DNA of 64,000 nt from NCBI GenBank assembly GCA_027067055.1, contig JAMOMK010000130.1, positions 1 to 64,000 on the forward strand, written 5' to 3'. The stretch's first letter is position 1, and every line of letters begins with the position of its first letter. The notes under the pieces were generated by a model. The model saw only the letters and a program-made list of their open reading frames with translations, had not been told where the DNA came from and searched no databases. The DNA is from Lysobacterales bacterium (GTDB lineage: Bacteria; Pseudomonadota; Gammaproteobacteria; Xanthomonadales; Marinicellaceae). Positions 5,669 through 57,427 of this stretch are shown piece after piece. The translations under genes and the position numbers were made by a program.

Positions 5669-5694
5669 GGTTTTCTATGATGGACAAGACCCAT

Positions 5695-6615
5695 CTACGG
5701 TTTTATGGCTTCTAATGTAATGACTGCAAAATGTGGTTTGCGGTTTTCTTTTGAGGTGACTTTAACCTTAATATCAGTTAACCCTGCATTTTTGGCAAAT
5801 TGCTCCAGTTCCTTAGGTGTAAATCCATTATTTAGGTGTCCAAAATCATTAACTATATCGGTGTGATTGTGTTTGGCTAATGTTGAAATTAATATTTTTC
5901 CACTGGGTTTTAATCTCAAACTGGCTTGCTCAAGGGCTAATTGTGGGTTTTTTGAATAGGTTAAAACATGTAATAAGAATACAGTATCAAAAATATCTGT
6001 CAAATTTAAATTATGCATGTCTGCTACTTGGTAACTGATGTTTTTAGCGTGTGATAAGCGTTTTTGTGCTTCTTTTATAACCTTTTCACTGCTGTCAACG
6101 CATGTATAGGTTTGTGCGCGTTGGTGTAATAGCTCGGCTAATACACCATCACCTGAGCCAATATCAAGGACATCACCTAAATCTAATAAATAACTTATTG
6201 CACGGGTTGTTGCTTCCCACGATCGGCCTGGAGAGTATTGACGTTCCATATCGCCCGCCACCGAATCCACCCAGTTTTTATTCTTTGCTCGTTCAGATAA
6301 GACAAGTTTTAAACGTATTTCATCTTGTTTGACTAAGGAGTCGTCTTGGCCTTCTTGAATTAAACTATCCCAGAGACTTTTGTGCTTTTCAGAGATGAAG
6401 GATAAATTGAGGCGATAATAAGTCGATACACCATCTTTTCTTCCTAAAACAAAACGTTGTTCTTTGAGCTTGGCTAGGTGTGTCGAAATCCTTGGTTGTG
6501 CTAATTGCAATGTAGCACAGAGTTCTGCCACTGTTAACTCATTGTCTTGTAACAATAAAAGCAAGCGTAAACGTGTTTCATCAGCTAGTAATTTAAATAC
6601 TTGTGCAATATTCAT
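5695..6615 (-). CDS. ArsR-family regulator fused to a SAM-dependent methyltransferase domain (SahR-like)
   Basis: This 306-aa protein has an N-terminal winged helix of the ArsR type (residues about 1-90, LADETRLRLLLLL and the recognition helix QPRISTHLAKL). A class I methyltransferase fold follows (VLDIGSGDGVLAELL near 140, with a VDSS acidic end of strand 2 and later LRLKPSGKILIST). Regulators of this architecture beside methionine-cycle genes include SahR, a repressor that senses S-adenosylhomocysteine. Position directly upstream of metH supports that role. ArsR metal-binding CxC motifs are absent, so a metal sensor is unlikely. Autoregulation is suggested by the inverted repeat in its promoter. 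Whether the methyltransferase domain is catalytic or only binds ligand cannot be told. Confidence 0.8.
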   Translation of the reverse strand: MNIAQVFKLLADETRLRLLLLLQDNELTVAELCATLQLAQPRISTHLAKLKEQRFVLGRKDGVSTYYRLNLSFISEKHKSLWDSLIQEGQDDSLVKQDEIRLKLVLSERAKNKNWVDSVAGDMERQYSPGRSWEATTRAISYLLDLGDVLDIGSGDGVLAELLHQRAQTYTCVDSSEKVIKEAQKRLSHAKNISYQVADMHNLNLTDIFDTVFLLHVLTYSKNPQLALEQASLRLKPSGKILISTLAKHNHTDIVNDFGHLNNGFTPKELEQFAKNAGLTDIKVKVTSKENRKPHFAVITLEAIKP

Positions 6616-25229: not shown

Positions 25230-25808
25230 TTAACGTACCATTCCACCAAAGCCCATAAACGCAATCGACATAATGCCAGCAGTAACTAGAGCAATAGGTG
25301 TGCCTTTAAATGATTCTGGAATATCAGCCATCTCAATACGTTCGCGAACAGCTGAGAATAAAACCAATACCAAGGTGAAGCCAATAGATGCACCAAAGCC
25401 GAATACGGCTGATTCGATTAAATTATTTTGTTCTTGAATATTTAGCAATGCGACACCTAAAACTGCACAGTTGGTCGTAATCAATGGCAAGAAAATACCT
25501 AAAACCTGATAGAGTAAAGGTGAGGTTTTATGTAAAATCATTTCGGTGACTTGTACAGTTACTGCAATAACTAAGATAAAACTCAAAGTTTTGAGGTATT
25601 CGAGCCCAAGAGGAACTAATAAATAAGTGTGGATGAAATAACTTAAGATGGATGATAAAGTCAATACAAAGGTCGTTGCTAAACCCATCCCAAGAGCCGA
25701 TTGGTATTTGCTAGAAACGCCCATGAATGGACACAAACCCAAAAACTTCACCAATACGAAGTTATTGATGAATACCGCACTAATAAAGATAAAAAATAAC
25801 CCACTCAT
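25230..25808 (-). CDS. rnfA: Rnf complex subunit RnfA
   Basis: I start at ATG 25808 ([10 protein letters not shown], 192 aa), which matches the family length; the open frame extends 23 codons further without family similarity. Six membrane helices and the motif [18 protein letters not shown] at the N-terminus identify RnfA, the partner of RnfE in the membrane iron-sulfur core. It is the first gene of the rnfABCDGE operon. Confidence 0.96.
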
Positions 25809-45967: not shown

Positions 45968-46366
45968 GTGAGTGATAATAGTAAAGAGTTGGATTTTTCA
46001 GGTTTGAAGGTGATGGTAATTGATGATTCTAAAACCATTAGAAGAACTGCAGAAACATTATTAAAAAAGGAAGGTTGCGATGTTGTATCGGTGGAAAATG
46101 GTTACGATGCTCTTTCATTAATATCAGATTTGCATCCAGATGTTATCTTTGTGGACATCATGATGCCACGTTTAGATGGTTATAAGACGTGTGCATTAAT
46201 CAAAATGAATAAAGAATTCAAATCTACCCCAGTGATTATGCTGTCATCTAAAGATGGTCTTTTTGATAAAGCAAAGGGGAAAGTTGTCGGAGCAGAGCTG
46301 TACTTAACCAAGCCGTTTACAAAAGAAGAATTGCTTGATGCAATAAAATCGAATAGAAAAGGGTAA
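45968..46366 (+). CDS. pilG: PilG-type single-domain response regulator
   Basis: The 132-aa receiver domain starts at GTG 45968. It has the phospho-acceptor Asp63 (VIFVDIMMPRLDGY), the acidic pair VIDDSK, and the run FKSTPVIMLSSKDGLFDKAK with Lys in LTKPF. Wording matches Pseudomonas PilG more closely than PilH. In the Pil-Chp system PilG is phosphorylated by ChpA and promotes pilus extension. No second regulator gene (pilH) is found next to it. pilI follows by 5 nt. Confidence 0.92.
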   Translation: MSDNSKELDFSGLKVMVIDDSKTIRRTAETLLKKEGCDVVSVENGYDALSLISDLHPDVIFVDIMMPRLDGYKTCALIKMNKEFKSTPVIMLSSKDGLFDKAKGKVVGAELYLTKPFTKEELLDAIKSNRKG

Positions 46367-46371
46367 ATTTC

Positions 46372-46908
46372 ATGTCAAAAAACAATGTAAAACCGTTTGA
46401 GTTGCTTGCAGAATACGAAAGGTTGAGTTTGAAGCATAAAGTTGAAGTGCTAACAGAAAAAGTTAGAGACCAATGGTCTGGTGTAGGTTTTAAAGTTGGC
46501 GACACTTATTATGCTATTGCAATTGAGAAAATTGTAGAGGTTTTGATTCTGTCAGAAACCACAAAAATCCCAGGAATTTCAAAGTGGGTGTTAGGGTTGG
46601 GTAATATTCGTGGTAATTTATTGCCTATAATTGACTTTAAATCCTATTTATCTAATCAACCAATAAAAATTACGGCACACACACGTATGGTTGTTATTAA
46701 GCAAATTGTTGGTCAAGTTGGTATTGTTGTAGATGAAGTCTTTGGTCAAAAACATTTTGTAAACAAACAAATAATCAAAAACAATAAAAAAGAGAATGAA
46801 TTGAAATATTCTGAGTTGGCTTTTGAAGACAAGGGTATTGTATGGAATGTGTTGGAAGATGAGAAGCTTATCAATGATCCATTATTTCAAAATGCTGCGG
46901 CAGTATAA
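46372..46908 (+). CDS. pilI: CheW-like adaptor PilI
   Basis: The 178-aa protein carries one CheW domain: GVGFKVGDTYYAIAIEKIVEVL, VLGLGNIRGNLLPIIDFKSYL and VGIVVDEVFGQKHF. It links the receptor PilJ to the kinase ChpA. An N-terminal stretch of about 35 polar residues precedes the domain. It lies between pilG and pilJ. Confidence 0.93.
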   Translation: MSKNNVKPFELLAEYERLSLKHKVEVLTEKVRDQWSGVGFKVGDTYYAIAIEKIVEVLILSETTKIPGISKWVLGLGNIRGNLLPIIDFKSYLSNQPIKITAHTRMVVIKQIVGQVGIVVDEVFGQKHFVNKQIIKNNKKENELKYSELAFEDKGIVWNVLEDEKLINDPLFQNAAAV

Positions 46909-46929: not shown

Positions 46930-48948
46930 ATGAGTGTTACATCAAATGATTTAGGCGGACAAGCTAGAACTTTGCCAACGTGGCAAGTTTTTATCTTGTT
47001 GTTACTTATTATAGGGTTCGTAGTCAACTCTATTGCATTAAGCACAATTGAATCAAATAAGGTACAACATGTACAAGCAGCTGATGATATTCAAATTAAA
47101 GCACAGCAATTGGCTCAACATGCTATTTCATCCGCGTCTGGAGAAGAGGATTCGTTTAAGAAACTTAAATTCACTCGAGATTATATATCCAAAAAAATTG
47201 ACTCATTAGTCAATGGTAATTCAGATTATCCATCTGTTCCAGTAGAGGTTAATGACTCGTTAGATGTTGTAGAAACCACCTGGAAAGCAATGAACTCTAA
47301 TGTAGGAAAGATATTAGATAAACAGGAATTGATTAAGGATATGTCCTCGATTTATAATAAATTTGCATCTCAAATCCCTGAGCTACAAACAAAAAATGAT
47401 AAAGTGGTTAAACTATTGGTTAAGATTAATGGTTCTAGAGAAATAATCCGTTTAGCAGGTCAACAACAAGTATTGGCGGATAGAATGTTAAGACGTATGG
47501 GTGAAGTGCTAAAAGGAGGAATGAATGCTGTCCAGGAATCAGAAGCTTTAAAGGATGACACAAATCGATTTTCAAAAGTGTTGAATGGAATGTTTAATGG
47601 TGATGGAAATATAAAAGCTGTAGCAAATAAAAGTGTGATTGAAGCACTTGGCTCTGTGTATAATGTTTTCAATGGCTTGCAAGCTGATGTCAACGAAGTA
47701 ATGAAAGCTCAAGATTTATTTGAAGCACAAACTGCAACAGATGATATAGTATTTGATACACCATTATTTGTTGATCAAACCAAAGAGTTGTCGACTCATT
47801 TAAAAGAAATCAAAACGACCCTGCCATCTGCAAATGCACAGTACATACTAGGTGGGTTAGCTCTATTATGGCTAATATTTATATTGTTCTCATTGACTAA
47901 AAGTGATAGAAAAAGAGCTACAGAAGCACAAGATTTGAATGAAAGAAATCAGTTGGCTATTTTAAGATTGCTGGATGAAATGGGTTCATTGGCTGATGGT
48001 GATTTAACGGTAAATGCAACAGTGAGTGAGGATATTACAGGAGCTATTGCGGATTCTGTTAACTTTGCTGTTGAGGCTTTAAGAAGTTTGGTAAAAACAA
48101 TTAATGATGCATCGGTTGGCGTGGCATCTGCTGCCCAAGAAGCGCAAGCAACAGCTTTACACTTGGCCGAAGCCTCAGAACATCAAGCACACCAAATTAC
48201 CAATGCATCGGCCGCAATTAATGAAATTGCTGTATCAATTGATGAAGTATCGATTAACTCGTTAGAGTCCGCAGATGTGGCGCAACGTTCAGTACTAATT
48301 GCACATAATGGTGCGGAAATTGTACGCCAAACTATTGAGGGTATGGATAATATTCGCAATCAGATTCAAGAGACTTCTAAACGTATTAAGCGATTGGGTG
48401 AAAGCTCACAGGAAATTGGTAACATAGTTGAATTGATTAATGATATTTCTGAACAAACAAACATTTTAGCACTAAATGCAGCCATTCAAGCTGCATCAGC
48501 TGGTGAAGCTGGACGTGGTTTTGCCGTGGTTGCCGATGAAGTACAATCACTTGCTGAACGTGCGTCAAATGCAACGAAACAAATTGAAACACTAGTACAA
48601 ACCATTCAGTCAGATACTAACGAAGCGGTATCCTCAATGGAACAAACGACAGCAGAGGTAGTGGATGGTGCTAAACGTGCAGAAAATGCGGGTGATGCAT
48701 TGACTGAAATTGAAGCGGTATCAAACGATTTGGCTGAATTGATTCAGAATATATCAGAATCTGCAAAACAACAGTCCGTAGCTGCAACAAATATTTCAGG
48801 AACCATGAACGTGATTCAAGAAATTACGACTCAAACCTCTGTTGGTACTCAGCAAACTGCAGAATCTATTGGGAATTTAGTGGAGCTTGCAAATGAATTA
48901 CGCTTGTCAGTACAAGATTTCAAGTTGCCAACTGATGAATTTAATTAA
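46930..48948 (+). CDS. pilJ: Methyl-accepting chemotaxis protein PilJ
   Basis: The 672-aa receptor has two membrane segments (about 17-40 and 305-325) enclosing a helical periplasmic domain with the PilJ-type motif [17 protein letters not shown], a HAMP-like linker, and the signalling tip [20 protein letters not shown] with [19 protein letters not shown]. It is likely to sense pilin or surface contact and transmit through PilI to ChpA. Glutamine/glutamate methylation sites lie on both flanks of the tip, served by PilK and ChpB. Confidence 0.93.
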
Positions 48949-48953
48949 TTAAA

Positions 48954-49811
48954 GTGAAAAATTATTCAAATGAAGGGTTGATTTTTTTGCCCGATTTTAA
49001 ATTGTTCGATTATGAAGAGTGGTCACAATTACTAGAAAAAAGAGTTGGAATAACTATTCCGAAAGAAAGAGAACTTTTTTTGCAAACAAAAATTTGGTCT
49101 AGGATGCGAGAACTTGGAATTTCATCATTTTCAGAATACTGGCAAATGGTTAAAAATGGTATTACAGGAAATTTAGAATGGAGCGAATTGTTAGATAGAT
49201 TGACAGTTCATGAAACCAGTTTTTTTAGGCACGGACCTTCTTTTAAATTGGTTGAGAATGATTTTAACAATATTCTTGAGAATAAAGCTAAGTTTCATTA
49301 CAAAGTATGGAGTGTTAGTTGTTCTACAGGAGAGGAGCCGTATTCCTTAGCTATGATGTTACATCAATTAAAAATTAAGGCAGAAAAGAATAATGTTTAT
49401 TACGGAATTACTGCAACTGATGTGAGTAAGCCAGCATTGATGCAAGCTGAAAATTGTTTCTACAGTAAAGAAAAAGTAAAAGAAATAGATTTGAATTATA
49501 GAAAATATTTGACGAGTGTTAATTCAAATATTTTTACAATTGATGAGACTATAAAAGATCGAGTAGCGTTTGGCGTATTTAATTTGTTGAAAATTGAAAA
49601 AATGCCAACTATTAAGTTTGATATTATATTTTGTCATAACGTATTAATATATTTTTCAAAAGGAAAAAAAATAAAAATTTTAGAAGGGTTGAAAAGGTTT
49701 TTGAAAAAAGGGGGATTGCTTGTTTTAAACCCAACTGATATAGGTAGTTGGAAAAGCCAAGGCATGACGCGAATAACATATAAGAGAACTTTAGCATATA
49801 AATTGGATTAG
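48954..49811 (+). CDS. pilK: CheR-type methyltransferase PilK
   Basis: The 285-aa protein starts at GTG 48954. It shows the CheR pattern: N-terminal helical domain, then LTVHETSFFRHGPSF, VWSVSCSTGEEPYSLAMML (SAM site), ITATDVSKPALMQA and FDIIFCHNVLIYFS. It methylates receptor glutamates, presumably on PilJ. Five nt separate it from pilJ and eight from chpA. Confidence 0.93.
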   Translation: MKNYSNEGLIFLPDFKLFDYEEWSQLLEKRVGITIPKERELFLQTKIWSRMRELGISSFSEYWQMVKNGITGNLEWSELLDRLTVHETSFFRHGPSFKLVENDFNNILENKAKFHYKVWSVSCSTGEEPYSLAMMLHQLKIKAEKNNVYYGITATDVSKPALMQAENCFYSKEKVKEIDLNYRKYLTSVNSNIFTIDETIKDRVAFGVFNLLKIEKMPTIKFDIIFCHNVLIYFSKGKKIKILEGLKRFLKKGGLLVLNPTDIGSWKSQGMTRITYKRTLAYKLD

Positions 49812-49819
49812 ATAAAAGT

Positions 49820-52800
49820 ATGAGTGAAATAGAACAAATAGATTTCTCAACATTAATTTGGGTAAAAAAAGAGCTTGATGAAACCTTGAGTAAGGCACAG
49901 TCAGCAATTGAAGCCTATGTGGAGAATCCAGAAGATGAAAATCAATTGCAGTTTTGTGCTACCTATCTACATCAAGTACAAGGTACTCTTAAAATGGTGG
50001 AACTCTATGGTGCAGCAATGGTTGCCGAAGAAATGGAACAAGTTGCTACCAAGATACTAGATAAAGAAGTTGATTCAGAAAAGGATGCTTTTGAGGTGTT
50101 AACAAGAGGCATTTTATTGCTACCAGATTATCTAGAAAGAATACAACTAGGGCATAAAGATATACCAATGGTGTTACTGCCGTTGGTTAATGATTTGAGA
50201 ACAGTAAAAGGTGATCAGCTACTATCAGAAAGCGCCTTGTTTAACCCGAATTTAAGTTTAGGAATTCCTGAGTCAAGCTTCAACTCTAGCTTTATTCTAA
50301 GTGAAAACCAGTTAACTCAAGTCGTTAACAAAATAAGGAGCGTTTATCAGCTTAGTTTATTAAACTGGTTGAAAGGGAATGATGTAGATGCTAATTTAAA
50401 GAAGATTCAAATTATCATAGATAAGCTAAAAACTGTTGTTCTTGAGCAGGATGAAAAACAAATGTTTTGGGTGGCAGGAGGTTTGTTTGAAGCTTTAATT
50501 AATGGAAGTTTGGACAGGTCTGTCACAGTTAAACAGCTTGCAGCAAGGTTAGATCAAGCAATTAGAATGATAGTTTCAAATGATAATGCTTTAAATGATA
50601 GACCCTATAAAAAAATCACCAAAAACCTTTTATATTATGTTGCTTTAGCTCAAAGTAATGATAGACGAATTAAAGAAATCCAAAAGTTTTTTAATTTATC
50701 CGACTTTATTTCTGATGAAACAGAGATTGCACATGCGAAAACAAGTTTGTCTGGAAAAAATAAAGAGCTTTTAGAATCAGTTACAACTGTCATTAAAGAA
50801 GATTTAATGACAGTGCAAGAGAGTTTGGATTTGTATAATCGTAAAGAAAATGCTGATGTTTCTGATATGAGGATAATACTGGAATCATTGAATAAAATAT
50901 CAGATACACTTGGAATTATAGGTGTGGGGATTGCACGTTCACGAATAAAAAAGGTGATAGAAAGTGTAGAGAAAGAGATTGAAGAATCTGAAAACGTAAA
51001 TAAAGACTCTCTGATGGAAATTGCTGAGACAGTTCTTTTTGTGAATTTAGCTTTAGATGAAAATATTCTTTCTCTTGGTGAAATTAGTGATATTGATGTG
51101 GATTCTGAGTCAAATATTGCATCTTCAGAAATTCGTAAAATTAAAGATATTTTAGCACAGGAGTCAATAAATTCATTACAGAAGGTTAAGCAGAACTTTA
51201 TTCAATACATTGAGTCTTCGTGGGATCAAAAGCACTTAGAATCATCTCCAAAACTGCTCAAACAAATAAGTGGTGCTTTAAAAATGTCTGGTTTTCTTGA
51301 GGTTGCTGACGAAATTGAGAAAATTGAAGAGTACACTTCAAATCACATGCTAGAGAAAAATTATGTTCCTGATGTAGAAAAGTTAGATGTTTTAGCTGAG
51401 GCTATCGCAAGTTTAGAATATTATTTGGAATATTTAAGTGAAGGAACACGAGGGGAAATAAGTATATTAGAACTGGCACAATCCAATATTAAGAAATTAT
51501 TTGATTCAAAAATTCAAGAAGATAAAAATGATATTCTTAAAGACCCAGTAGATCAACTTGATGATGACGATAATAGTATTAACCAGTATGAGAAAACTAC
51601 AGAAGATATTCAATTAACAGAAGAAATTGAGAAAGAATCATCAGCCATTTCATTAGTGGCAGAAAATGAGTTGAGTTCAGAAGACGAATTAAATTCAGAG
51701 CTTGATGGTATTAATGAGATGGAGTTTGATGAGTCTCTAGATAATGAAATTATTAATGAGCATGAGTTTACACAAAGTGTTGAGAGATTAGTTGTCGCTT
51801 TTAGTGAAGACACTGATGATGACATAAAAGAAGTGTTTTTAGAAGAGTTTGAAGAAGAGGTTGAACACCTTAATGACATCTATCCCCGATGGAAAAACAA
51901 TCCAGAAGAACAATTTGAACTGTTGGGTGAAATACGCCGTATCTATCATACATTAAAAGGTAGCGGAAGATTGGTTGGAGCTATGGCAATTGGTGATTTC
52001 AGTTGGAAGATTGAAGACATGACTAATCAGGTCTTAAATAAAACACGAGATGGATCCGCATCCTATTTATTGGTTATGGATGCATCACAGAACATATTGC
52101 CAAGTTTATATCAAGCATTAAAAGATGAAGCAGAAGTTCCTCCTGGTTATTATGCTATTTTGAAAGCAGCAGAATCGGTTATAGACGGAAATACTATTAC
52201 CGAAATAATAATAGATGAAGACGACGTAGGTTTGGATGCTAAACCTCTTGAAAAGAAAGATGATTCGATTGTAGCTCAAGATTTTGACAGTATCGAGTTG
52301 AAAAATGAAGGTTTAAATGACTTGCCAATCGATAAAGCTGATGATGTCATGATTTCAAATGAAGACTTATTAGACTTTGATGATGAGTTGTCAAGTTTAG
52401 ACGATGACTTTATGGATGAGTCAGATTTATCTGTAGACCCCGTGTTTGTTGAAATATTGCAACAAGAGGTAGAAGGTCATTTAAATGATATTGGAGAATA
52501 TTTAGATAATTCAAAAAAATCTGGCAATTATTCACCAACAGATAAATTTATAAGAATTGTACACACCTTGAATGGAGCAGCCAATATGGCATCCGTTAAT
52601 AGCATTGTGTCTATGACAACCCCATTAGAATTGTTTGCAAAGTCAGTTTTAGATACTAAAAAAGTGTTTGACGAAAAAAGTATTCAACAAATAGAAATGT
52701 TTAAAAGTGAATCTGAAAAGATTATGAAAGATTTGTCTCATTTATCCACCCCTACTGATGAGATTAATAAAATCGGTTCATTCTTTAAAAATGCGAACAT

Positions 52801-55800
52801 TGAAATAAATCAAGAAATAAATGTATCGGATGATGAATTAACAGACTTTGATTTGAAACAGTTCATTGATGAATCAGATGATGAGTTAAGTAATGAAGAG
52901 TTAATGAGTCAGTTTGATGATTTAGAATCTGAAATTAATGATGTTAAGGATTGGTCTGAGGACAGATCTGCTCTTGATGACTCATTGAGTGGAGATGAAG
53001 ATTTAACTCTAGAAATTGATGACTTTAATTTAGGAGAAGAAATTTCTCTTGAAATCGAAGAATTAGGTTTAGTTGAAGAATTAGATCATTCTTCAGAAGA
53101 ATTAATTCTTGAAATTGAAGAACTAGAGTATAGCAATTCAGAAGAAGGCTTAGAAGCAGAATCAGAAGATGATTTAGAAGATGACTTAGAAGAAGAGTCA
53201 GAAGATGACTTAGAAGCTGATTTAGAAGAAGATTTAGAAGATGATTTAGAAGAAGAATCAGAAGAAGACTTAGAAGAAGATTTAGAAGCTGGTTTAGAAG
53301 AAGACTTAGAAGAAGACTTAGAAGATGATTTAGAAGATGATTTAGAAGATGATTTAGAAGCTGATTTAGAAGAAGGATCAGAAAAAGGTTTAGAAGAAGA
53401 CTTAGAAGCTGATTTAGAAGAAGAATCAGAAGAAGGTTTAGAAGAAGACTTAGAAGAAGACTTAGAAGAAGATTTAGAAGCTGATTTAGAAGAAGACTTA
53501 GAAGCAGAATCAGAAGATGACTTAGAAGAAGACTTAGAAGCAGAATCAGAAGCCGACTTAGAAACTGATTTAGAAGACGAGTCATTAGAATTAACTAAAC
53601 AAGATCATATTTCAGCTAGTGTACCGACTAGTTATAATTCTCAATCAGAGTCTTCAGAACAAGAGTCTTCAGAAGAGTTTGACGAAGAGCTATTAGAGAT
53701 ATTCCAAGAAGAAGCAGATGACATATTGGATAGAACAGAGCATGTTTTATCAGATTTAGAAGAGGATCCGAATAATTTATCGTTAATTGAAGCATTACAA
53801 CGAGACTTACATACCTTGAAAGGTGGGTCAAGGATGGCAGGCCTGTATAATATTGGCGAATTAAGCCATGTTTTAGAATCACTGCTTGAAAAAATAGGAG
53901 AAGATAAACATGAGGTTGATGGAAAAACATTTGGTATTATTCACGACTCTTTTGATACGTTAAATAAGTTAAAAAATGAAAGTGATTTTGGACAGTCATC
54001 TGATATATCTACAAGCGTTACGAATGTTAAATCTCTATTAGGGTTAAGCGATAATATAGTCCCAGAAAAGTCCAAATTAGATATAGATGAATTTGACTCT
54101 GTTAATCCAATGCAGGTGATAACAGATGAAGAGGTGGATATTGATGAAGCGACAGTTAATGTGCCATCGAAAAAATCTAATGTATTATCAGGCAATCAGA
54201 TAAAAGTAAATTCTGAATTATTAGATAATTTAGTGAATTATGCAGGTGAAGTGAGTATTTACCGTTCACGACTAGAGCAAGAAGTTGGCTCCTTTAGGAT
54301 TAACTTAACAGAGCTGGGTAATACTGTTGCACGTATTAGGGAGCAACTAAGAAAATTAGATGTAGAAACTGAAGCACAGATTATTTCAACCTTCCAGATT
54401 GAAGAAACTGGAGAAGGGTTCGATCCTTTGGAAATGGATAGATTTTCACAATTGCAACAACTATCACGATCATTAACTGAGTCTGTATCAGATTTGACGA
54501 GCATTCATAGTTATCTAGATGATGTTGCTCGTAAATCTGACAATCTCTTAACTCAACAATCTCGAGTGAATGCTGAGTTACAAGATGGTTTAATGGAAAC
54601 GCGATTAGTTTCTTTTAATTCAATCGTTCCTCGTTTAAGAAGATTAGTCAGAACAACATCTAAAGAATTGAAAAAGTCAGTGAAATTAGATGTGCATGGA
54701 GCTGAAGGTGAAATGGATAAGACCGTCCTTGAAGGAGTAATAGCTCCTCTTGAGCACATGATAAGGAATGCTCTTGCACATGGTATTGAATCAAATCGTA
54801 AGAAAGCTAAAAAAGCTGATGCTGGTCATATTTCATTGGATTTAAGACGAGAAGCAACAGAGGTTGTTATTACGGTAATAGATGATGGTGCCGGTATTGA
54901 TCGCGAGAAAGTAAAACAAATTGCTATAGAAAAAGGCATAATTGAAAAGGATAAACAAATATCTGATAATGAAATTGATAGACTTATACTTCATAGTGGA
55001 TTCTCAACAGTTGACAAAGTTTCCAAAATTGCAGGACGTGGTGTAGGAATGGATGTCGTTGTTAATCAAATAAATCTATTAGGCGGAAGTTTAGATATTA
55101 GTTCGGATTTAGGTAAAGGGACGAAGTTCATCATACGATTGCCTTATACCTTAGCTCTTTCTAATGCATTGTTAGTTGAAGTTTCTGAACAAGTTTATGC
55201 AATACCAATATCTGGATTAGAAGGCGTGATACGTATGTCTTATTCAGATTATTTGCAAAGACAGAAAGATGACAATATGGTTTATAATTATGCTAATGAA
55301 GAATACCAAATATATGAATTGAATAATTTATTAAATATTGATTCTGAGGTCATAGTTGAAAACAATCAAATACCACTTGTTATGATTAGATCTGGAGAGG
55401 ATGGTGTTGCTTTAAGGGTTGATAATGTCTTAGGCTCTCGTGAAATAGTTGTGAAAAATGTTGGTGCTCAAATTTCTAGTGTTCCAGGTATATACGGAGC
55501 AACAATATTAGGAGATGGAAATGTAATCCTGATATTAGATGTGATTCCACTCTCTAGAAGTTATGTTAAGAAACTTAAAGACATTGAAGAAAGTGGTTAT
55601 GTTGCTGAAGAAATTGAAGTAACAAGAGACCCTATAATAATGATTGTAGATGATTCTATTACGATGAGAAAAGTTGGGGAAAGAATTTTACGTAGAAATG
55701 ATTATGATGTAGTAACTGCAAAAGATGGTATAGATGCACTTGATCAGCTTAAAGAAGTTGTTCCTGATGTAATGTTGTTAGATATTGAAATGCCAAGAAT

Positions 55801-56002
55801 GGACGGTTATGAGTTAGCAATTGAAATGAAGAAAATAGAATCTTATGCTAATGTCCCAATTATTATGATTACTTCAAGAACAGGTGAAAAACATAGACAA
55901 AAAGCAATGGATCTTGGAGTCAATAGGTATTTAGGCAAGCCATATCAAGAGGCTGATTTATTAGAAAATATAAGTGAACTAATTGAAGAATTTAAAAACT
56001 AA
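49820..56002 (+). CDS. chpA: ChpA hybrid histidine kinase with multiple Hpt domains
   Basis: The 2060-aa protein is the kinase hub of the Pil-Chp system. Hpt-type modules with the His in place are at His51 (HQVQGTLKMVE), His710 (HTLKGSGRLVG), His915 (HTLNGAANMAS) and His1331 (HTLKGGSRMAG). A further module near 480 (KQISGALKMSG) has Lys481 where His would be. The dimer and ATP-binding domains (LEHMIRNALAHGIE, DDGAGIDREK, GRGVGMDVV) span about 1480-1790, then a CheW-like part and a receiver domain with Asp near 1987 (DVMLLDIEMPRMDGY). An acidic tetrapeptide-repeat linker of 148 residues (1107-1254) separates two Hpt modules. Confidence 0.95.
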   Translation: MSEIEQIDFSTLIWVKKELDETLSKAQSAIEAYVENPEDENQLQFCATYLHQVQGTLKMVELYGAAMVAEEMEQVATKILDKEVDSEKDAFEVLTRGILLLPDYLERIQLGHKDIPMVLLPLVNDLRTVKGDQLLSESALFNPNLSLGIPESSFNSSFILSENQLTQVVNKIRSVYQLSLLNWLKGNDVDANLKKIQIIIDKLKTVVLEQDEKQMFWVAGGLFEALINGSLDRSVTVKQLAARLDQAIRMIVSNDNALNDRPYKKITKNLLYYVALAQSNDRRIKEIQKFFNLSDFISDETEIAHAKTSLSGKNKELLESVTTVIKEDLMTVQESLDLYNRKENADVSDMRIILESLNKISDTLGIIGVGIARSRIKKVIESVEKEIEESENVNKDSLMEIAETVLFVNLALDENILSLGEISDIDVDSESNIASSEIRKIKDILAQESINSLQKVKQNFIQYIESSWDQKHLESSPKLLKQISGALKMSGFLEVADEIEKIEEYTSNHMLEKNYVPDVEKLDVLAEAIASLEYYLEYLSEGTRGEISILELAQSNIKKLFDSKIQEDKNDILKDPVDQLDDDDNSINQYEKTTEDIQLTEEIEKESSAISLVAENELSSEDELNSELDGINEMEFDESLDNEIINEHEFTQSVERLVVAFSEDTDDDIKEVFLEEFEEEVEHLNDIYPRWKNNPEEQFELLGEIRRIYHTLKGSGRLVGAMAIGDFSWKIEDMTNQVLNKTRDGSASYLLVMDASQNILPSLYQALKDEAEVPPGYYAILKAAESVIDGNTITEIIIDEDDVGLDAKPLEKKDDSIVAQDFDSIELKNEGLNDLPIDKADDVMISNEDLLDFDDELSSLDDDFMDESDLSVDPVFVEILQQEVEGHLNDIGEYLDNSKKSGNYSPTDKFIRIVHTLNGAANMASVNSIVSMTTPLELFAKSVLDTKKVFDEKSIQQIEMFKSESEKIMKDLSHLSTPTDEINKIGSFFKNANIEINQEINVSDDELTDFDLKQFIDESDDELSNEELMSQFDDLESEINDVKDWSEDRSALDDSLSGDEDLTLEIDDFNLGEEISLEIEELGLVEELDHSSEELILEIEELEYSNSEEGLEAESEDDLEDDLEEESEDDLEADLEEDLEDDLEEESEEDLEEDLEAGLEEDLEEDLEDDLEDDLEDDLEADLEEGSEKGLEEDLEADLEEESEEGLEEDLEEDLEEDLEADLEEDLEAESEDDLEEDLEAESEADLETDLEDESLELTKQDHISASVPTSYNSQSESSEQESSEEFDEELLEIFQEEADDILDRTEHVLSDLEEDPNNLSLIEALQRDLHTLKGGSRMAGLYNIGELSHVLESLLEKIGEDKHEVDGKTFGIIHDSFDTLNKLKNESDFGQSSDISTSVTNVKSLLGLSDNIVPEKSKLDIDEFDSVNPMQVITDEEVDIDEATVNVPSKKSNVLSGNQIKVNSELLDNLVNYAGEVSIYRSRLEQEVGSFRINLTELGNTVARIREQLRKLDVETEAQIISTFQIEETGEGFDPLEMDRFSQLQQLSRSLTESVSDLTSIHSYLDDVARKSDNLLTQQSRVNAELQDGLMETRLVSFNSIVPRLRRLVRTTSKELKKSVKLDVHGAEGEMDKTVLEGVIAPLEHMIRNALAHGIESNRKKAKKADAGHISLDLRREATEVVITVIDDGAGIDREKVKQIAIEKGIIEKDKQISDNEIDRLILHSGFSTVDKVSKIAGRGVGMDVVVNQINLLGGSLDISSDLGKGTKFIIRLPYTLALSNALLVEVSEQVYAIPISGLEGVIRMSYSDYLQRQKDDNMVYNYANEEYQIYELNNLLNIDSEVIVENNQIPLVMIRSGEDGVALRVDNVLGSREIVVKNVGAQISSVPGIYGATILGDGNVILILDVIPLSRSYVKKLKDIEESGYVAEEIEVTRDPIIMIVDDSITMRKVGERILRRNDYDVVTAKDGIDALDQLKEVVPDVMLLDIEMPRMDGYELAIEMKKIESYANVPIIMITSRTGEKHRQKAMDLGVNRYLGKPYQEADLLENISELIEEFKN
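53138..53581 (+). repeat. 37-unit, 12-bp coding minisatellite in chpA
   Basis: The 444 bp divide exactly into 37 units of 12 bp, each reading (tta or tca) gaa NNN NNN and encoding (L/S)E(D/E/A)(D/E). Units such as LEED, LEDD, LEAD, LEEE and SEDD recur in irregular order. All units stay in phase, so gain or loss of units would not shift the frame. Leucine repeats seen in the minus-strand frame of this segment are a by-product. Confidence 0.9.
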
Positions 56003-56939
56003 ATTAGTTGGAATAATACACTTAGGAAAGCGAGAAAAATCAGGATCGCAAATACTGGAAAAATTAAAACAGTATGGTTTTGAAGTTCGTGAGTGGGATA
56101 TTGTTGATAGTAATGATTCAATAGTTGGTATAGAAAAAGTTGATGTGGTTATTATCAACATAGGAAATGCTATATTCGATTATGATTTTATTTTAGATAA
56201 AATCTTTGATTTGGATTTAACAGTTATTATTAATGAAGCACTATACAGTAATAAACTTGTTGGTAATAACCGGCAAAGTTGGGAGCGACATTTGTTACAT
56301 AAAGTTGATTCTACATTTAGTGTTTTACCAAAATTTTCGAAAACTGACTTTAATAAAAATAAGCTAATTGACTTAACTCATTTTGGTATTGATCAAGTGT
56401 GGTTATTGGCAGCTTCAATAGGTGGTCCTGAAGCCATTCAAGCATTTTTGTCTCAGTTTAATGGTGATGAAAAAATTCTTTTTATTATTATACAACACAT
56501 GGATAAAGAGTTTGTTCCAATGATGCAAAGTCAGTTTAGTTCTAGAAGTCACTTTGACATTGAGATTCCTTTATCTGGAATGAAAATTGAAGAGGTTAAA
56601 TGTTTGATACATCCAGTAGATGAGTTTATATCATTTTCAAATGGTTCGTTAGATTTAGAGGCTATGAATGAAGTATTTGCCTACACGCCTTGTATAGATG
56701 AATGCACAAAGAATTTAGTCAACAAAATAAAAAATATAAATATAGCAGTTTTTAGTGGAATGTCATCAGATGGAGTACGAGCTGCGGAGCTAGTGAAAGA
56801 AAAAGGCAATAAAGTAATAACACAGACAGAAGACAGTTGTGTACTGTCTTCGATAATATCTGGTGTGAAAAATAGATTAACAGTTGATTTTGATGGTATG
56901 CCAACTGATATGGCAGATTATATAATTAAAACGCTCTAA
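55983..56939 (+). CDS. chpB: CheB-type methylesterase ChpB
   Basis: The 318-aa protein has the CheB catalytic triad: Ser145 in LLAASIGGPEAI, His172 in IIIQHMDKEFVP and Asp near 262 in VFSGMSSDGVRA. There is no phosphorylatable receiver domain at the N-terminus; its first 130 residues form an alpha/beta domain without the receiver acidic residues. It removes receptor methyl groups opposite PilK. Its start lies 20 nt inside the chpA 3' end. Confidence 0.9.
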   Translation: MKNLKTKLVGIIHLGKREKSGSQILEKLKQYGFEVREWDIVDSNDSIVGIEKVDVVIINIGNAIFDYDFILDKIFDLDLTVIINEALYSNKLVGNNRQSWERHLLHKVDSTFSVLPKFSKTDFNKNKLIDLTHFGIDQVWLLAASIGGPEAIQAFLSQFNGDEKILFIIIQHMDKEFVPMMQSQFSSRSHFDIEIPLSGMKIEEVKCLIHPVDEFISFSNGSLDLEAMNEVFAYTPCIDECTKNLVNKIKNINIAVFSGMSSDGVRAAELVKEKGNKVITQTEDSCVLSSIISGVKNRLTVDFDGMPTDMADYIIKTL

Positions 56940-56953
56940 TTTGGAGATTAGAA

Positions 56954-57427
56954 ATGGCTAATGAAATTCGTGGAATTTTAATTCCAGTAGCAAATGAAAA
57001 AAAGGTACTACTTCCTAATGCAATTATTGCTGAGGTAGTTTCTTATAAAGATTTAAAGGTATCAGCGTCCGCTCCAGATTGGTATGTTGGGGCTGTTAAT
57101 TGGCGTGGTTATGAAAATGTACCTGTAATTTGTTATGAGTCTCTTTCAACTAACGGAGTAACAACTCGTGAAAAAGAAGGTAGAGTTGCAGTGATTAAAG
57201 CGCTAGGTGAGTTAGAGGGTCTGCCTTATTTCGCACTTATTGTTAAAGGTGTTCCAAGATTGCAAGTTGTGACTCAAGGTGATTTGCAAGTGCATGAACT
57301 AGAGGAAGATACTAATAATGCTATTGCTTCTCAAGTGACTATACAAGATGAATTGTCGGATATTCCTAATATCCGTTTTATTGAGCACGTAATCAATGCA
57401 TTGCTTTCTGTTCAAGAAGAAGAATAG
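56954..57427 (+). CDS. chpC: CheW-like protein ChpC
   Basis: The 157-aa CheW domain begins GILIPVANEKKVLLPNAIIAEVV and contains WYVGAVNWRGYENVPVICYE. A ribosome-binding site ggag (56942-56945) precedes the ATG. ChpC is an accessory adaptor in the Pil-Chp system and the last gene of the operon; it converges on the cytochrome gene with an 8-nt gap and no visible terminator. Confidence 0.92.
   Translation: MANEIRGILIPVANEKKVLLPNAIIAEVVSYKDLKVSASAPDWYVGAVNWRGYENVPVICYESLSTNGVTTREKEGRVAVIKALGELEGLPYFALIVKGVPRLQVVTQGDLQVHELEEDTNNAIASQVTIQDELSDIPNIRFIEHVINALLSVQEEE

Follow-up and report, generated by a model that had tools for sequence, protein, structure and literature searches.

The locus described here raises the question of what a long run of 12-bp repeats is doing in the middle of a gene for a surface-sensing kinase, how it came to be there, and whether related bacteria carry something similar at the same place. 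The window, meaning the whole stretch of DNA that was analysed, comprises 64,000 nucleotides. On sequence grounds the gene is chpA, coding for a Tfp-class CheA, and it lies within a Pil-Chp cluster. The features needed in what follows are listed below, with ChpA residues numbered from the ATG.

45968-46366, plus strand: stand-alone receiver, pilG-like, first gene of the Pil-Chp cluster (domain match)
46372-46908, plus strand: CheW-like protein, pilI (domain match)
46930-48948, plus strand: pilJ chemoreceptor, with PilJ N-terminal and MCP signal domains
48954-49811, plus strand: CheR methyltransferase, pilK (domain match)
49820-56002, plus strand: chpA, a pilL-type CheA of 2060 aa with Hpt domains, HATPase, CheW-like domain and C-terminal receiver
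51809-52126, plus strand: third detected Hpt domain of ChpA, about aa 664-769, with His710
52430-52741, plus strand: penultimate Hpt domain, about aa 871-974, with His915 in VHTLNGAANMA
52742-53674, plus strand: acidic linker joining the penultimate and last Hpt domains, in full, about aa 975-1285 (311 aa, net charge per residue -0.45), including the array
52892-52984, plus strand: short stretch of linker preceding the array, LMSQFDDLESEIN, with partial conservation in three species; a helix in the structural model (residues 149-179 there)
53138-53581, plus strand: 37 x 12-bp in-frame minisatellite, aa 1107-1254, consensus (L/S)E(E/D/A)(D/E)
53675-53989, plus strand: last, kinase-proximal Hpt domain, about aa 1286-1390, with His1331 in LHTLKGGSRMAG
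54743-55150, plus strand: HATPase domain of ChpA, aa 1642-1777
55637-55972, plus strand: C-terminal receiver domain of ChpA (domain match)
55983-56939, plus strand: CheB methylesterase, chpB (domain match)
56954-57427, plus strand: second CheW-like protein, chpC (domain match)

Pfam matches in ChpA comprised three Hpt domains, HATPase_c, CheW and Response_reg, while a local HMM detected five Hpt domains, two of them at about aa 11-109 and 439-541 and the other three as listed. The canonical Hpt histidines of the protein are residues 710, 915 and 1331, and the last Hpt domain matches CheA P1 structures, e.g. 1tqg and 2ld6. The receiver at the head of the cluster is pilG-like and is taken to be pilG. 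No pilH was found between this receiver and pilI (positions 45968-46908), and the remaining lone receivers in the genome showed about 31% identity to PilG or less.

The array occupies 444 bases and consists of exactly 37 phased units in frame 0 of the chpA ORF, in full agreement with the coordinates and the count given in the initial annotation of this DNA. An independent call by TRF placed it at 53136-53577, with a period of 12, 36.8 copies and a score of 464, the second-best score anywhere in the window being 52. The encoded 148-aa peptide has a net charge of -94 (95 Asp and Glu residues, one Lys and no Arg) and, in its Pil-Chp context, is the acidic in-frame spacer between Hpt modules that had been proposed. 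When the codons of the array were shuffled in 200 trials, the TRF score averaged 109 and did not exceed 232, indicating that composition alone fails to explain the order of the units. Codon usage in the array was uniform: all 29 Leu codons in the array were TTA (50% elsewhere in chpA; chance 2e-9), all eight Ser codons were TCA (32% elsewhere; chance 1e-4), and the second codon was GAA in all 37 units (72% elsewhere; chance 5e-6). Synonymous third positions have therefore stayed uniform, showing that the array grew by duplication of DNA and not by convergence at the amino acid level. With head-to-tail units, a period that is a multiple of three, a position within an ORF and an order beyond composition, it is a coding minisatellite. 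It is not a contingency or phase-variable locus, as a 12-bp unit preserves the frame at any copy number.

The units are, however, more diverse than the initial annotation had described. The pattern (L/S)E[DEA][DE], attributed to all of them, applies to 31 of the 37, the exceptions being SEEG (twice), LEAG, LEEG, SEKG and LETD. Nor can they be called near-identical: 19 distinct sequences were counted, with TTAGAAGAAGAC accounting for only seven units, neighbours differed on average by 2.4 of 12 bases, the same unit was repeated no more than three times in succession, and the longest exact direct repeat inside the array was 35 bp. It follows from this degeneracy that ordinary short reads suffice to establish the count of 37, and that slippage is expected to be slower than in a pure array. 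Of the suggestion that copy number changes by slippage without frameshift, the part concerning the frame holds, whereas the present array is less prone to slip than was claimed and, being degenerate, may now be stable. An antisense ORF of 186 aa, rich in Leu and Ser, overlaps the array on the minus strand (53025-53585); it was not regarded as a gene, since most likely it merely accompanies the repeat on the coding strand.

To place the array in context, chpA was compared in one genome per species (given here by working labels), the threshold being set at a TRF score of 100 or more. The family set comprised 26 genomes with the Hpt-kinase region of chpA plus G009, whose contig stops just past the linker, 27 in all. 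An in-frame acidic array in the last or the penultimate inter-Hpt linker was found in 22 of the 27, in the last linker in 18 and in the penultimate linker only in four (G020, G042, G045 and G047); two of the calls were borderline (G008, score 119; G042, score 112). The five members without an array at this threshold (G012, G013, G017, G024 and G043) indicate that the presence of an array is not a requirement. At a score of at least 100, no family array lay within a domain, and none lay N-terminal of the third-last Hpt domain except in G009 (a 36-bp array at aa 607-641, score 142). When the same query and threshold were applied to a class-wide sample, 13 of 77 other genomes had any array; the corresponding Fisher test (p = 3e-9) treats species as independent although they are related, and is to be read as a clear family difference and not as a measured probability. 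Strong arrays do occur outside the family, for example an 18-bp array in the class member G190 and, in the wider order, a 15-bp unit repeated 33.5 times in G025 and an 18-bp unit repeated 46 times in G029. In the last of these, a single-contig genome (L081), one unit of the array (5694-6523 of the reverse complement) is one base short and splits chpA into two overlapping frames, through an error of sequencing or else through a genuine frameshift inside the array.

The repeated unit itself varies by species, with translations that include LEED, EEDS, LEDETLE, ETDEA, EETAE, EA and a 27-aa unit. Periods were 12 bp for EEDS (G001 and G005), 21 bp for LEDETLE (G010), 6 bp for EA (G016 and G021), 78 bp in G007, 81 bp in G003 and G009, 93 bp in G020 and 96 bp in G045, and 15-bp units (ETDEA, EETAE, EEATA, AEVDE, EEVAE and others) were also found. 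G000, G003 and G007 are 88% identical over the Hpt-kinase region and yet have unrelated-looking units of 12, 81 and 78 bp, respectively. The 81-bp unit is common to G003 (3.0 copies) and G009 (6.1 copies), in which the flanks are 82-87% identical. Between G001 and G005, which share 96% DNA identity and the 12-bp EEDS unit, the order of unit variants differs beside the end of the array. Contigs of five genomes (G001, G005, G014, G022 and G041) stop inside their chpA arrays; it is the purest arrays that break short-read assemblies, and copy numbers in those contigs are lower bounds. L034 was also considered as a contig broken at an array, but proved to be contig C139 of G007, in which the break lies near the penultimate Hpt domain.

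Complete last linkers in the family ranged from 83 to 407 aa, with a net charge per residue of -0.24 to -0.48. As this range of charge is held while the units are unlike between species, charge and reading frame persist and sequence does not. Rapid change of both the length and the sequence of the spacer between species is supported by these comparisons. The initial annotation had overlooked this wider pattern, in which the same linker of other species, or the one next to it, carries an acidic minisatellite of another kind, and to which the repeats of FimV described below also belong. It was also found that the lengths of the last and the penultimate linker were anti-correlated (r = -0.85, n = 20, counting family members in which neither linker is truncated), although this was a post hoc test and much of the raw signal is a contrast between genera. 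When the main genus was taken by itself, the relation was weaker (r = -0.55, p = 0.04; Spearman p = 0.07), as it was in phylogenetic contrasts (r = -0.44, p = 0.05). It is hypothesized that the two linkers compensate for each other and so keep the total span.

FimV provides a second case of an expandable acidic stretch. FimV loci, located by a FimV_core search of the family and then analysed by TRF, contained 18-bp arrays of in-frame length in four species, with one shared unit type and 9.6 (G000), 8.9 (G003), 12.9 (G007) and 14.6 copies (G009). The unit is acidic and STEEM- or MPSTDE-like; the array of G000 lies on C84 near 25377-25595 (L258), and the others are L259, L260 and L261. Like the array in chpA, the FimV array of the same genus is an in-frame acidic minisatellite of variable copy number in the type IV pilus polarity system, but its unit is homologous across species, unlike most of the ChpA arrays. 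In P. aeruginosa, PilG associates with FimL and FimV in a complex at the pole (PMC5812489). Expandable acidic stretches in two proteins of one system suggest a shared role, as a lead and not as proof. Genome stretches amounting to 449 kb, together with the window, served to gauge the background of repeats; outside the window, the arrays with TRF scores of at least 100 were a 45/90-bp array (L247), a 30-bp array (L116) and a 9-bp array lying at the end of a contig. The translation of the first of these (L247:976-1249; G000:C55) resembles, by eye, the head repeats of YadA-type adhesins.

An AlphaFold prediction, of the kind that the initial annotation had proposed as a check, was run with AlphaFold2 on ChpA aa 877-1400, using a shallow alignment of three sequences, and gave a mean pLDDT of 52. 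In this weak model the last Hpt domain had a pLDDT of about 57-83 and the helix in the upstream linker about 80, while the array, at about 32-50, was mostly without secondary structure, with helix confined to model residues 292-303. The array is thus likely to be intrinsically disordered. The conserved upstream segment at 52892-52984 (LMSQFDDLESEIN), if helical as modelled, could serve as a docking motif.

Taken together, the linker is probably a disordered polyanionic spacer, built by tandem duplication and turned over throughout the family, that separates the distal Hpt domains from the kinase core. The array grew through in-frame tandem duplication of DNA rich in GAN codons, and across the family such acidic arrays repeatedly arise, expand, degrade and are replaced, with acidity, reading frame and, probably, disorder persisting in the linker and the sequence not. 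The spacer would let the distal Hpt domains roam far from the kinase core and the receiver, and charge repulsion would keep the chain open. In P. aeruginosa ChpA, the kinase phosphorylates Hpt4-6, phosphate is exchanged between the receiver of the protein and Hpt2-6, and PilG and PilH obtain their phosphate mainly from Hpt2 and Hpt3 (PMC5812489). If the plan in the present bacterium resembles that of P. aeruginosa, the linker with the array divides kinase-proximal from distal Hpt domains, and the receiver would have to bridge the two. With the generic exponent for disordered chains, by which end-to-end distance scales as N^0.598, the 311-aa linker is predicted to span about 170 Å, against 116 Å without the array. 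By the same estimate the array would cut the effective concentration between the two sides about threefold, and a gain or loss of five units would shift it by about 11-13%. A shift this small for a few units suggests that length, if it acts at all, is a graded dial and not a switch.

Several other accounts of the array have to be set against a disordered spacer. It is extremely unlikely that the array or its copy number was created by short-read assembly, an outcome that the initial annotation had named as fatal to its proposal. The genome is in 145 contigs and, as noted, contigs of five relatives stop within arrays; on the other hand, ordinary short reads resolve the order of units, no exact internal repeat being longer than 35 bp, the contig continues beyond chpA with the 2060-aa ORF intact, and many independent genomes carry different arrays at the same place. 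A rigid rod, in which the four-residue period (LEED) forms one long single alpha-helix and fixes the spacing of the Hpt domains, is also highly improbable. The Glu- and Leu-rich period of this species would suit such a helix, and a helical spacer had been put forward in the initial annotation. The model based on three aligned sequences is almost free of helix over the array, however, and relatives have units of 5, 6, 7 and 27 residues at the same place, so that helical phasing is not conserved. With a single Lys and no Arg among its 148 residues, and a model that is mostly non-helical at low confidence, the array lacks the character of a single alpha-helix. A net charge of -94 without compensating Lys or Arg disfavours a single helix at neutral pH.

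How far the length of the spacer matters is harder to judge. It is an even bet that the array is a neutral by-product, in which self-similar GAN codons slip, a disordered linker tolerates any length, and selection acts only against frameshift or loss of charge, with no tuning. The confinement of arrays to linkers that are already acidic is in keeping with this account, as are the arrayless close relatives and the wide range of complete linker lengths; the anti-correlation of the last two linkers, weaker as it is within the genus and in contrasts, speaks against it by suggesting a constraint on total span. Adaptive tuning, as proposed in the initial annotation, in which repeat number would shift fast in populations and set the output of the Pil-Chp system, generating heritable variation in surface behaviour, is considered doubtful. 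In its favour are the rapid turnover between species, the different unit order in the closely similar G001 and G005, the same-unit array in the partner protein FimV with 8.9-14.6 copies over four species, and the example of tolA, in which repeat number alters stress phenotypes (PMC3477136). Against it, the short exact repeats and the divergence of adjacent units imply slow slippage, and adding or removing a few units is expected to move the effective concentration by only about 10%. A more elaborate version is a little less probable still, namely that the linkers of ChpA and FimV are evolutionary tuning dials, with minisatellites setting the distance of the Hpt domains, the last two linkers compensating, and the flow of phosphate to the pilus regulators being adjusted. 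A spacer remains the likely role of the linker, a helix is unlikely, and tuning is a conjecture.

The variable repeat of tolA is the closest precedent for the array in chpA. In E. coli, the in-frame repeats of tolA vary among strains, changes in their copy number alter stress tolerance, and they contract at a rate of 6.9e-5 in a RecA-dependent manner (PMC3477136). Both are in-frame repeats in a protein related to the cell envelope or motility, and in both a change in length preserves the frame. However, tolA varies among strains and isogenic variants have been tested, whereas the differences in chpA are between species; moreover, ChpA is a cytoplasmic kinase, and its unit sequence itself turns over between species. 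P. aeruginosa ChpA (PMC5812489, PMC10542144) shares the order of the cluster and the arrangement of N-terminal Hpt domains, HATPase, CheW-like domain and C-terminal receiver, but has eight or nine Hpt domains, compared with five detected here. The present protein also differs in having a 148-aa acidic minisatellite between its last two Hpt domains; no mention of such repeats was found in the passages of these two papers that were searched. The CheA proteins of E. coli and T. maritima have long linkers (PMC10542144), and in CheA kinases the Hpt (P1) domain is tethered to the kinase core in this way, but the linker here is a hyper-acidic tandem array that parts one Hpt domain from another. No report of tandem repeats or VNTRs in chpA was found in the open-access literature, subscription journals being outside the scope of the search.

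The large number of phosphotransfer domains in ChpA, and the route that phosphoryl groups take through them, are described as poorly understood (PMC12632253). Short-read MAGs break at the purest arrays and probably under-count them, and most variation of this kind therefore escapes notice in the data available today. The more interesting result is that these acidic linkers have been rebuilt again and again, each lineage in its own way. Related kinases in which the spacer between the kinase-proximal and distal Hpt domains has been remade from unrelated acidic repeats constitute a natural experiment on whether the length or the charge of a linker matters to a multi-step phosphorelay.
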